From assembly GCA_946410085.1 (NCBI GenBank), contig CAMJZA010000034.1, positions 1 to 36,958 of the forward strand: a stretch of DNA of 36,958 nt. The letters run 5' to 3'. This document shows positions 1 through 36,958 of this stretch, piece after piece; position 1 is the first letter of the stretch, and every line of letters begins with the position of its first letter. The notes below the pieces were generated by a model. The model saw only the letters and a program-made list of their open reading frames with translations, was not told where the DNA came from and ran no database searches. This stretch comes from an uncultured Treponema sp. GTDB lineage: Bacteria > Spirochaetota > Spirochaetia > Treponematales > Treponemataceae. The translations under genes and the position numbers were made by a program.

Positions 1-62
1 GCGGGCTTGCGGGCTTGCGGGCTTGCGGGCTTGCGGGCTTGCGGGCTTGCGGGCTTGCGGGC
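1..62. repeat. 8-bp tandem repeat (GCGGGCTT), at least 7 copies
   Basis: Seven perfect copies of GCGGGCTT occupy 1-56 and a further 6 bases continue the pattern to 62. The window starts inside the tract, so the true copy number is unknown. Eight is not a multiple of three, so gain or loss of a copy shifts the reading frame of the lipoprotein gene that runs through it. The tract has no stop codon in any forward frame and encodes the periodic peptide LRACGLAG. Confidence 0.95.
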
Positions 63-1677
63 AGCCCTATTCTCTTTCTGCGCCATCCTCTTTGCTGCCT
101 GTGACGGAATCGGCACATCGGTACGGGGAAGCTACGAGCTGTACGGCGACGGCTCAACTCCGGCGGCTTCCGGCACGTCTCCAGATGCTTCCGCAGGTCA
201 TTTTTCTACGAGAGACCTGCTGGAACTGTCAAATGCCGGCGATGCAGAGGCTATCGTAGATCTGTTTCTCGGGGTCAAGGGCCTTGACAGTTCCAGTCCT
301 GAGGGGATGGTTACGGTGTCCCTGCCTGCCGCTGCCATAAAGCTGCCTGCCGGAGGCCGCGTTACCTTGACCATTACAGGAGGCGGATTGAATTATGAGC
401 ATACAGCGGAAGCATCTGATGACGGCATGGTCTATTTTCAGGTTCCCAAGGTACAGAATGGTTCGGTACTCAAGGTCAGTCTCACGGTGAAGAAGGCGAA
501 CGGCAGGCTTTACTGTTCGGGCAGCAAGACCCAGACCGTCAGCGAGCATTCCCATAATTTCGGTATTGCCCTGAAATACGAGCCGATTCCCGTGAGCATG
601 CTGACGGGGGCTCAGATAAATGCAGCCCTGAAGGGAGCTTTCAGTGTTACGGCTGGCGGAACGATGAGGAGCTTCCGTCCTTCGCAGACGCCTCCCCCGG
701 CAGGGATTTCGACGGTGCTCCTTTCGACTGCTGATTCGGAATGTGAGCTTTTTGCCTGGCAGGAGGGGGATGCCATCCTGTTCTATGCGGAAGGGATGGA
801 AGGCAGCGGAAAGATTCCGCTGAGTGCAGATTCAAGACAGATGTTCGACGGCTGTTCTGGACTTACGGCAATTGATATGAGCCGCTTCGATACGCGAGAT
901 ACAACGGACATGATGAAAATGTTCTATGGCTGTTCAAGCTTGGTCGATTTGGATGCAAGCAGCTGGAATACGGGAAAGGTGACAGACATGGTTGAGATGT
1001 TCTCTGGCTGTACATCCCTGTCACATTTGGACACAAGCGGCTGGGACACGGGCAGCGTAATGGACATGCATTTTATGTTTAGAAACTGCAGCAGTCTGAC
1101 CGCTCTGGATGTACACGGCTGGGATACGAGCAAGGTGACGGACATGAGGCGTATGTTCGAGAGCTGCAGCAGTTTGACAAGTCTGGACACAGGCAGCTGG
1201 AATACAGGCAAGGTAACCTCGATGTTCAATATGTTCTATGGCTGTACAAATTTGGGCAGTGTAAACGTACGCGACTGGGATACAGGTTGCGTGACAGATA
1301 TGAATACAATGTTTGCAGGCTGCATCAGTCTGACCAGCGTGGATGCAAGCGGCTGGAACACGAGCAAGGTGACGGCCATGCACCGTATGTTCCAAGGATG
1401 CAGCGGTCTGATTTATGTAGATGTAAGCGGCTGGAATACGGAAAAGGTGCAAACGATTAACAGTATGTTCCAAGAATGCGTCAGTTTGGAGACTATCTAT
1501 GCATCCGGTTCATTTTCTCAAGCTTCTGTTACAAATGGTCGTAACATGTTCAATGCTTGTTCAAGTCTTGTCGGTGGGGCTGGTACCGTATATGATTATT
1601 ATAAACGCCATAGTGACATGGCACGTATGGACAATCCGCCGTCTTCCCCCGGCTATTTTACGCTTAAAACACCATAA
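1..1677 (+). CDS. BspA-like (DUF285) leucine-rich-repeat surface lipoprotein, 5' partial
   Basis: The product is a probable surface lipoprotein of the BspA/DUF285 family; such proteins are common in treponemes, Brachyspira and mycoplasmas and are often linked to adhesion. The frame is open to the left edge, so the true start lies outside the window or in a different copy-number state of the octamer repeat; a TTG at 7 is possible but unsupported. After the repeat-encoded arginine-rich segment comes a hydrophobic stretch ending FAAC followed by Asp, a relaxed spirochaetal lipobox. A long N-terminal domain of unrecognised type follows. From about nt 840 there are roughly eight 26-residue repeats of the form DM..MF.GC.SL..LD.S.W.T.KVT. 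The chain ends in a PGYFTL motif, typical of these proteins, and then two TAA stops. Family call firm; function inferred. Confidence 0.85.
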   Translation, partial: AGLRACGLAGLRACGLAGLRAALFSFCAILFAACDGIGTSVRGSYELYGDGSTPAASGTSPDASAGHFSTRDLLELSNAGDAEAIVDLFLGVKGLDSSSPEGMVTVSLPAAAIKLPAGGRVTLTITGGGLNYEHTAEASDDGMVYFQVPKVQNGSVLKVSLTVKKANGRLYCSGSKTQTVSEHSHNFGIALKYEPIPVSMLTGAQINAALKGAFSVTAGGTMRSFRPSQTPPPAGISTVLLSTADSECELFAWQEGDAILFYAEGMEGSGKIPLSADSRQMFDGCSGLTAIDMSRFDTRDTTDMMKMFYGCSSLVDLDASSWNTGKVTDMVEMFSGCTSLSHLDTSGWDTGSVMDMHFMFRNCSSLTALDVHGWDTSKVTDMRRMFESCSSLTSLDTGSWNTGKVTSMFNMFYGCTNLGSVNVRDWDTGCVTDMNTMFAGCISLTSVDASGWNTSKVTAMHRMFQGCSGLIYVDVSGWNTEKVQTINSMFQECVSLETIYASGSFSQASVTNGRNMFNACSSLVGGAGTVYDYYKRHSDMARMDNPPSSPGYFTLKTP

Positions 1678-7683: not shown

Positions 7684-10600
7684 ATGAAGTTTTTGAGGGC
7701 GTTTTTTAAGCATCCCCTGATCATCATCATTGTTTCCGTCGTACTGACGGGGGCGACGGGATTCTTCCTGAAAGACCTGGAAATGGATAATTCCACGAGG
7801 ATGTTCTTCCCGCAGAAGGACGTTTCCTATGTACGGCTTGAAAATACCGAGGCCGAATTCGGCAGTATGCTCGCCATCGGCGTCAGTATCGAAGCCAAAG
7901 ACGGTTCCATTCTGACTCCCGAGTACATAGAAGTCATCCGCGAGATAAGCGACAAGGTGCTGGAGCTGTCTAACGTCGAGGACGTGGATTCCCTGACGAA
8001 CATCGACTTCGTCTGTGATCAGGACGGGGCCATTTCCGCAAATCCGCTGATTCCCGACAGCTATACCGGAACGGCGCAGGACATTGCGCAGCTGGAAAGG
8101 CGGCTCGCCGAGTGGGACGACATGTACAACCGCGTCATCATCAACGACGAGGGAACCGGAACCCAGATGTCCATTTCCCTGCGTCCGAAGAGCGACATCC
8201 TGCTTGCCTTTGATGAGGCAAAGGAAGCCCTGAAGCTGGCGAAGGAAAGCAATGCGCCTGCCGAAGAGCTTGCCGCCGCAACAAAGGCGTACAAGGAGGC
8301 AAAACGGGCCAAAAAGCTTGCTCCGCCGGATTCCCAGCGGCTGCAGGACACCCTGTATGAGGTAAAGAAGATTACCGAGGCAGCCTGTGAGGGTCATAAC
8401 CTTTCCTACAAGTTCTACGGTGATCCGGTGGTTTCGGACAACTGCAAGAGCTTCATGCTCTCCGACCTGCTCCGGCTCATCCCGCTCGTCATCGTGGTGG
8501 TCATCATCACCCTGTACCTGAGCTTCCACACGCTGGACGGAACAATCCTGCCCCTGCTGACGGTGCTCATGTCGACGATCATGTCCTGCGGCCTGATGGG
8601 CTTCTTCCACTTTACCTTTACGCTCGTCGCAAGCGTCATTCCGGTTGCCCTGATAGCGGTCGGATCCGCCTACGGCATCCACGTCCTGACCCACTACTAC
8701 ATAGAGCTGAGCAACGTGAAGGGTGAGATGACGAAGGAACTGTATGAGGAGGCCATCTTCAAGGGACTTAAGGAAGTCTTCATGGCCGTCCTCCTTGCAG
8801 GCATAACGACCATCGTCGGCTTCGTCTCGCTCATTACCAGTCCGCTGGAACCGCTGCACAGCTTTGCAATTTTCGCTGCAATCGGCGTGGCGATGGCGCT
8901 CCTCCTGTCCATCACCTTCATTCCGGCGCTCCTCCTGCTGAAGTCCTACAAGAACCTCAAGAAGCGGGGCCGCATCGAGCAGCTGTCCGACAAGGTACGG
9001 CAGAAGCTTGACCGGGCGCAGCAGCTGCGCGGCGGAAAATCCGTCACGGAAGCGAGCGGCGATACCCTGTACATGATATACCGCTTCTTCTGCGGCACGA
9101 AGGTCCGCCTCATCATCACCTCGCTTGTCATCGTCGTCATATCCGTCACCGGCCTGCTCAAGCTGAAGGTTGACACCTCGCTGATCAGCTATTTCCCCCG
9201 GAATTCCCAGCTGAGAACCGACATTGACTACGTCAATGAGGAATTTGCCGGTACGAACAGCGTGTACTTCACGATTACCGGGCAGGAGAAGGGCGACATC
9301 ACGAACCCCGAGCTGCTCAAGGCGGTAGATGACCTGGAAGTCTACCTGAAGGGCAAGTACCCGGAAGTCGGCAAGATCATTTCACTTGCGACCTTCATCA
9401 AGCGGATAAACCAGGTCTGGCATGTGCCCGCACAGCCTGCAGGGCTTGAGGACGGTGCATCCGCCCTTGAGGGCAGCGGGAGCCTTGACGACAGCTTTGC
9501 TGATGACGGCTGGGACAGCGGCTTCGGCTCAGACGACAGCTTCGGCGACGACGGCTGGGACAGCGGCTTCGGCTCAGACGACAGCTTCGGCGACGAGGAC
9601 TGGGACAGCGGCTTCGGCTCAGACGACAGTTTCGGCGACGACGGCTGGGACAGCGGCTTCTCCGAGGCAGAATCCCCCGCATCGGACGGCGGCGACAGCG
9701 GTATGCCGGACGGTTGGGTTGACCCGAACGACGCCTATGCCGCAGCCCTGTCCAAGCAGGTTACCGGACAGGAAATCCTCGACATGTTCAACAAGGCCTA
9801 TGTCGCAGCCGGCGGCAGGACCGCAAGCCTGGAAAAAATCGTCGACGAGCTGATGAAGCAGATGAACTACAACGGCATGGCCTACTATGAGGTTCCGTAC
9901 GACCCCGCCAAGTACCCCGTGGCAAGCCGTGAAGAGCTTTCCGGCGTCGTCAGCGGCTACCTGACCCTGCTTTCCGGCTCGCTTGACCGTTTCATTGACG
10001 ACGACATCAATCCCAAGGAAATGCGCATCACCTGCCAGCTGCGGGAGCACTCAACCGAGGTTTCCGGCAAGATCATCGCGGACGTGAAGCAGTACGCCGC
10101 AGCGCATTTCCCGGCCGGCTACACGGTCGAAGCAACCGGTACGGGCGAGATGGAGTACACGATGACGAACATGATCATATCCAGCCAGTTCATGAGCCTC
10201 ATCGTCTCCCTGCTGTCCGTGTTCATCATCATCACCCTGTCCTTCAAATCTGGATGGGCAGGCCTGCTGGGAGCCGTCCCGCTGGCCTTTGCAATCATGC
10301 TGAACTACATGACGATGGGCTTTGCGAAGATTAACCTGGACTTCATCACGAGCATCATCGCATCCGTCGTCGTCGGCGTCGGCATTGACTATACGATTCA
10401 CTTCCTGACGACCTACCGTGAGGAACGGTCCCGGAGCCGTGATCTGGTGGAGGTAACGAAGAATACCTTCAAGAAGAGCGGCCACGGCATCGTAACGAAC
10501 GCGCTTGCCGTCGGACTGGGCTTCATCGTGCTCTGCCTGTCCAAGTTCATCGTCCTGCGCTACATCGGAATCCTTGTCGCAATCGAAATGATTGCATCAA

Positions 10601-36774: not shown

Positions 36775-36958
36775 AGCAGGCCATGTGCGACATACACGCC
36801 AGCCCATGTGTTGGTCACCCGACAGCCCATTCGTGCCACCCCCGACAGTCCATTCGTGTCATACCTGACAGTCCATTCGTGTCATACCTGACAGTCCATT
36901 CGTGTCATACCCGACAGTCCATTCGCGTCATACCTGACAGTCCATTCGCGTCATACCC
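36775..36958 (-). repeat. 23-bp tandem repeat array, 8 units, reaching the window edge
   Basis: Units start at 36775, 36798, 36821, 36844, 36867, 36890, 36913 and 36936 with an exact 23-bp period, and the last ends at the final base. Read on the plus strand the unit begins GACAGTCCATTCGTGTCAT. On the minus strand it reads CTGTCAGGTATGACACGAAT and matches units of the left array at about 19 of 23 positions. TGTCA-TACC-TGACA forms a short hairpin across each unit junction. Units nearest smpB are the most diverged and those at the edge the most alike. Confidence 0.93.

Follow-up and report, generated by a model that had tools for sequence, protein, structure and literature searches.

An octamer tract runs into the signal peptide of a lipoprotein gene

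Does the octamer repeat at the start of this Treponema gene switch a surface lipoprotein on and off, and is its copy number read out through the reading frame or through the 5′ end of the mRNA? The window, the whole stretch of 36,958 nt that was analysed, is the entire contig C34 of a draft genome (3.64 Mb, 134 contigs), and its nt 1, the first base of the contig, lies inside the repeat. The features at issue are:

1..62, + strand: octamer tract GCGGGCTT x7.75, truncated at the contig end (minimum length)
1..1677, + strand: lipoprotein ORF, 558 codons, 5′ end open, stop codon TAA at 1675-1677
55..57, + strand: last in-frame TTG, candidate start codon
55..102, + strand: minimal signal peptide and lipobox LFAAC, Cys codon 100-102
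100..579, + strand: N-terminal domain common to the paralog family (profile A1)
835..1569, + strand: DUF285/PARCEL repeats with a BspA-type LRR_5 match, residues 279-523

The tract has a period of 8, 7.8 copies, and 100% matches (Tandem Repeats Finder), and comprises seven complete GCGGGCTT units followed by the six bases GCGGGC, with zero mismatches. It is thus an SSR: a long, perfect tandem tract at a 5′ end, with a unit length not divisible by three. Because nt 1 is the point at which the assembler stopped inside the repeat, 7.75 copies is a lower bound, and the gene start lies outside the contig. Elsewhere in the genome, GCGGGCTT is found solely at two contig ends, C90 (upstream side) and C114, the latter carrying a second paralog that exits a GCGGGCTT tract (87% identical to the window gene); a search of all contigs for the reversed octamer pattern gave zero matches. 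Copy-number differences were observed between loci and between species.

The layout described in the original prediction is borne out: at least seven perfect copies run into the signal peptide, the tract is free of stop codons in all forward frames, and a single frame reaches the lipobox and the mature protein. Specifically, frame 1 passes L-F-A-A-C (Cys at nt 100-102) and is open to 1675-1677, while frame 2 stops at 257-259 and frame 3 at 102-104. The prediction also presupposed that the gene does not start downstream of the tract, and we find no in-frame ATG, GTG, or TTG between the tract and the lipobox. The in-frame start codons of the window gene are TTGs only, at 7, 31, and 55, all within the tract and all lacking a Shine-Dalgarno sequence. 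A start at TTG 55, the putative start codon, would yield M-R-A-A-L-F-S-F-C-A-I-L-F-A-A-C at any copy number, the frame from this codon being independent of the octamer number.

The protein is a predicted bacterial lipoprotein (LFAAC, with C-x-G-x-G conserved in paralogs), and profile searches assign it to the PARCEL/DUF285 repeat surface proteins (DUF285, 1e-92, with PF03382 at 306 bits against a curated cut-off of 25; PARCEL TIGR02167, 4e-71, 234 bits against a curated cut-off of 30). It also counts as a BspA-type LRR protein, with LRR_5 above its cut-off (5e-12, 46 bits, cut-off 27.7), in a segment that overlaps the far stronger DUF285 stretch. The earlier label "BspA-like" is therefore only roughly right: the LRR_5 match is real, and the main repeats are DUF285 and PARCEL.

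The window contains other repeats. Degenerate 23-nt tandem arrays (ACCCGACAGTCCATTCGTGTCAT and relatives) lie between genes at 1707-1924 and 36817-36958, and such arrays recur at several places in the genome, including the L064 and L017 ends. A 45-nt tandem repeat of about four copies, of in-frame length and probably coding, lies at 9487-9701.

Non-triplet repeats mark the 5′ ends of a modular lipoprotein family

A six-frame search of the genome revealed 26 places, two of them in one gene, and hence 25 paralogs. This is a minimum, since another family lipoprotein was found in C12 (L136, C12:39499), with G9 and CTCTT both in the signal peptide and in frame. The paralogs have in common an N-terminal domain of ~160 residues, and their C-terminal ends vary, comprising DUF285, LRR_5, FGE-sulfatase-like, PKD, or unassigned domains; DUF285 is present in only four of the 25 members found (C34, C114, C51, and C40). 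What defines the family is thus the N-terminal domain, whereas the C-terminal domains are exchangeable. L062, L063, L064, and L072 are members with FGE-sulfatase-like C-terminal domains. The N-terminal domain is present in 8 of 200 genomes of the genus, with at least three copies in the window genome and six others. Within the named GTDB collection, it matches MAGs of Treponema or Spirochaetaceae, several of which come from rumen (RUI307, RGIG3441, RUG14227, and SRR1267595_bin.11), and the window probably derives from a rumen-type Treponema.

The 5′ ends of the family carry units of several kinds: GCGGGCTT (C34, C114), GCGGTCTT (C104), TGCGGAC (C46), CTATT (C64), CTCTT (C19, C29, C63), and poly-G of 8-13 (C7b, C7c, C31a, C40, C28). 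Counting long tracts only, repeats of 1, 5, 7, or 8 nt are present in 12 of 25 family 5′ regions versus 2 of 555 control windows (P=1.7e-16), and non-triplet and triplet units stand at 12:0 in the family versus 2:8 in the control windows (P=1.4e-4). Six relatives have poly-G of 8-19 in or near the signal peptide in the same gene family, and one has TTCCTTA x9.6. Outside the family, G11 is present at the 5′ end of a glycosyltransferase-like ORF (L139, C24:31953) and G13 within a methyltransferase-like ORF (L141, C38:5741), both functions being guessed from residues; these are possible candidates for phase-variable glycan genes.

Family members are found in ON and OFF frames

Reading-frame states could be scored for the nine paralogs in which start codon, tract, and mature domain are all complete: three are ON (in frame: C64, C7c, C28), and six are OFF (out of frame, with a long open frame behind the tract: C19, C29, C63, C7b, C31a, C40). 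In the OFF paralogs the frame is broken at the tract only and the mature ORF is intact. In all five poly-G genes the poly-G length decides the frame, G9 being ON and G8, G10, and G13 being OFF. A start codon with a Shine-Dalgarno sequence upstream, and the tract inside the ORF, are seen in the pentamer paralogs and in several poly-G paralogs; the CTCTT, CTATT, and poly-G paralogs thus appear from their sequences to be frame switches of the classical translational kind. Pseudogene decay was considered for the OFF paralogs and rejected, as it would not confine the break to the repeat and leave an intact ORF behind it; decay may apply to C31b, in which the break is elsewhere, and to C1, which lacks a signal peptide.

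The ON/OFF pattern is the mark of translational phase variation across the family, and it supports the original idea of a switched adhesin better than any other finding. Together, the repeat enrichment, the ON and OFF paralogs, and the same pattern in relatives make phase variation well supported. As regards the window gene, the idea holds insofar as the gene encodes a surface-type lipoprotein from a family rich in non-triplet 5′ repeats with relatives both ON and OFF; the proposed switching by frame at the octamer fares less well, since the only in-frame starts are the tract TTGs without Shine-Dalgarno sequences and TTG 55 is frame-independent.

A σ70 promoter directly precedes heptamer and octamer tracts

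The C90 and C64 contig ends reveal what precedes such tracts: TTGACA-N16-TATAAT-CGCTT, a 12/12 match to the σ70 consensus, and then the tract. The promoter pattern AAAGYACTTGACA-N14-18-ATAAT has exactly four matches in the genome, each at a contig end and adjoining a tract of 7- or 8-nt units, and two of the four are 12/12 consensus. The GCGGTCTT tract has a sole entry (C64) and a sole exit (C104), so the C64-C104 join is secure, and the C104 ORF begins exactly as the window ORF does. The GCGGGCTT tract has one entry (C90) for two exits (C34 and C114), and we infer that the window gene continues upstream into C90 or else into a sister contig missing from the assembly. The heptamer tract is entered from both C45 and C117 and left through both C33 and C46. 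Given the near-perfect σ70 promoter immediately ahead of such tracts, mRNA +1 probably coincides with the first base of the tract, placing the presumptive transcription start of the window gene at its tract.

Using the upstream motif found with the C64 flank, we located modules of the same kind in relatives, in which the same promoter is followed by GGCCTGTC, GGCCTGT, GACTGCG, CGCTTGTG, or CGCTTGT tracts (3.7 to 14.8 copies, separated from the −10 box by 0-1 nt). Twelve modules in five genomes, including the two octamer entry flanks (one of them only putatively that of the window gene), have a tract of unit 7 or 8 beginning 0-5 nt after the −10 box, and thus at the −10 box/transcription start, as in hmwA-type systems. 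These are 12 of the 16 modules with readable sequence behind the promoter, and their unit sequences differ; L246, L267, L268, and L270 are without a tract, and L266, the contig of which ends 8 nt behind the −10 box, was left out of scoring. L268 and L274, similar around the promoter, have ~1 versus 6.4 copies of the same unit, CGCTTGT, and L250 has units of 7 and 8 mixed. The L274 module precedes a gene unlike a surface protein. A conserved upstream motif, AACKCACTAAAATTCYGTGCGTTGTACTCTA, perhaps an operator, recurs at L245-L279; a genome has many copies, and these frequently precede genes for surface proteins or lipoproteins. With the same upstream motif ahead of them, L257, L265, and L273 encode lipoproteins of another type (C-D-Y-W/C-D-F-W), the signal peptides of which contain a poly-G run of ~10.

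In C33, L250, and L259, the tract is followed by a 138-155 nt leader with a hairpin and a U-run, and then by a Shine-Dalgarno sequence and ATG. (The hairpin and TTTTT of C33 are visible in the fold and were missed by the terminator scan, probably owing to the long loop.) Because the start codon lies behind this leader, the tract is untranslated in these three; likewise, in modules with a visible gene start, the start is downstream of the tract. The untranslated tracts indicate that the common denominator of the modules is the transcription start, not the reading frame. A leader peptide running through the tract to the lipoprotein ATG in one open frame with an ATGA overlap (L250 and L259; similar in C33) was rejected, since the L250/L259 differences fall 7:9:8 over the codon positions, indicating no coding constraint. 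A conserved peptide upstream of the tract, MKENAKKWAK..LD..HIIAC, is explained by A-rich promoter DNA, as read off the sequences, its frame being the only one left open by TTGACA-N16-TATAAT. No credible match to a known RNA family was found at the module.

Read-out of the repeat number

Taken together, the window tract is probably a hypermutable SSR at the promoter/coding junction of a phase-variable surface lipoprotein, with a leader read-out as the probable mode. In the proposed mechanism, presumed slippage at the window tract would change the octamer number and so lipoprotein expression: the mRNA would begin within the tract, copy number would set the length and structure of the 5′ leader, and this variable leader would precede a TTG start in the last repeat, comparable to hmw1A/hmw2A of Haemophilus. 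The locus would be one member of a family-wide contingency repertoire. Taken by itself, the leader read-out (mRNA start in the tract, TTG in the last repeat) falls just short of an even chance. We prefer it to a frame read-out since untranslated tracts have the same promoter module; the effect of copy number may accordingly lie in the 5′ leader or in transcription, in place of the frame or in addition to it. Counting against the leader read-out is the weakness to be expected of a TTG start that lacks a Shine-Dalgarno sequence. The tract has a predicted 5′ hairpin (−7.4 kcal/mol per copy), but for most sister tracts permuted units fold just as stably, and a selected RNA hairpin as a conserved trait was rejected because the permutation test is non-significant for most units. 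A G-quadruplex was likewise rejected, as GGG recurs only in GCGGGCTT and a fold allowing quadruplexes formed none.

An opa-like translational switch, in which translation would begin where the tract begins or farther upstream, so that the 8-nt unit shifts the lipobox frame and one copy number in three is in frame, is doubtful for the window gene but has substantial points in its favour: the lack of a start codon from tract to lipobox, coding sequence that extends to the edge of the tract in C34, C114, and C104 (third codon GCA or GCT, synonymous), the frame switching of the CTCTT, CTATT, and poly-G paralogs, a TTG that follows the −10 box of C64 and C90 at 3 nt, and an ATG in C90 with a frame open into the tract. 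However, this ATG lies upstream of the 12/12 promoter and is absent from C64, a promoter with 16-nt spacing leaves a frame open across it in any case, internal starts at an in-frame TTG every 24 nt would blur a frame effect, and sister tracts at the same promoter are untranslated. Unstable 5′ DNA without regulatory effect, tolerated since the last TTG always gives a working signal peptide, would fit the frame independence of TTG 55 and the repeat-less promoter modules, but 12 of 16 modules keep a 7-/8-nt tract of differing sequence at the same place and repeats are strongly enriched in the family, which makes this account unlikely. We regard a mis-joined or collapsed repeat at contig ends as very improbable: every GCGGGCTT, GCGGTCTT, and GCGGACT tract of the window genome is indeed at a contig end, but long repeats can be expected to interrupt an assembly, other genomes have equivalent tracts in full within contigs (L259, L260, L262, L250, L274), and the pentamer and poly-G tracts of the window genome sit inside contigs.

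Whether through the leader, as we prefer, or through the frame, the window gene is, judging from its sequence context, most likely phase-variable. A broader proposal, which we hold tentatively and with the chances somewhat against it, is that rumen treponemes carry a dispersed module, AACGCACTAAAATTCTGTGCGTTGTACTCTA plus a σ70 promoter plus a 7-/8-nt tract at +1, that tunes many surface genes and is fused to the coding start in the window gene. If so, tract position and unit length would be kept with sequence left free, copy number at the transcription start would tune many surface genes together, and the window tract would set both leader length and reading frame.

Comparison with known systems

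Repeat-based phase variation is known chiefly from pathogens, and its principle is not new. In the literature covered, which was incomplete, no paper on rumen Treponema repeats, DUF285 phase variation, or spirochete slipped-strand lipoproteins described such a system, nor did we find the combination seen here: a treponeme that is a commensal, a modular family with four types of repeat, and a promoter module whose +1 repeat is conserved in length but not in sequence. Rumen treponemes probably switch surface proteins at random. It appears that this uncultured lineage of gut commensals maintains a large stochastic repertoire of surface proteins, in which a single gene family uses four or more types of repeat, among them CTCTT, the unit of Neisseria opa, adopted independently. 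Modules with differing units would permit a sequence-independent test of the effect of a repeat at the transcription start.

The mature part of the window protein resembles PARCEL/DUF285 surface proteins (PMC2996958), but the family is set by its N-terminal domain, with DUF285 in just four of 25 members. In Treponema pallidum, poly-G acts in the promoter of tpr genes and Tp0126 (PMC7864442); the likeness is that, in the same genus, repeat length alters surface-protein expression (there shown, here predicted), whereas poly-G here lies in the lipoprotein coding start and 5-, 7-, and 8-nt units occur besides. The likeness to Neisseria opa (PMC3960869) lies in the CTCTT of C19, C29, C63, and C12, a non-triplet unit encoding LLFSS in the signal peptide and found in ON and OFF frames; in contrast to Opa outer-membrane proteins, these are spirochete lipoproteins, and the window unit is an octamer without a convincing upstream start codon. 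In Haemophilus influenzae hmw1A, the 5′ UTR contains the heptamer, which overlaps the P2 −10 box, and mRNA declines as the copy number rises (PMC8262952). The modules resemble hmw1A/hmw2A, with (ATCTTTC)n, in having a 7-nt tract at the −10 box/transcription start, in the 5′ UTR of a surface adhesin gene with a separate start codon downstream. Unlike in hmw1A/hmw2A, the Treponema units vary by locus and species, lengths of 7 and 8 occur, in L250 even together, a single promoter type serves several loci of a genome, and the window tract also reaches the signal peptide codons.
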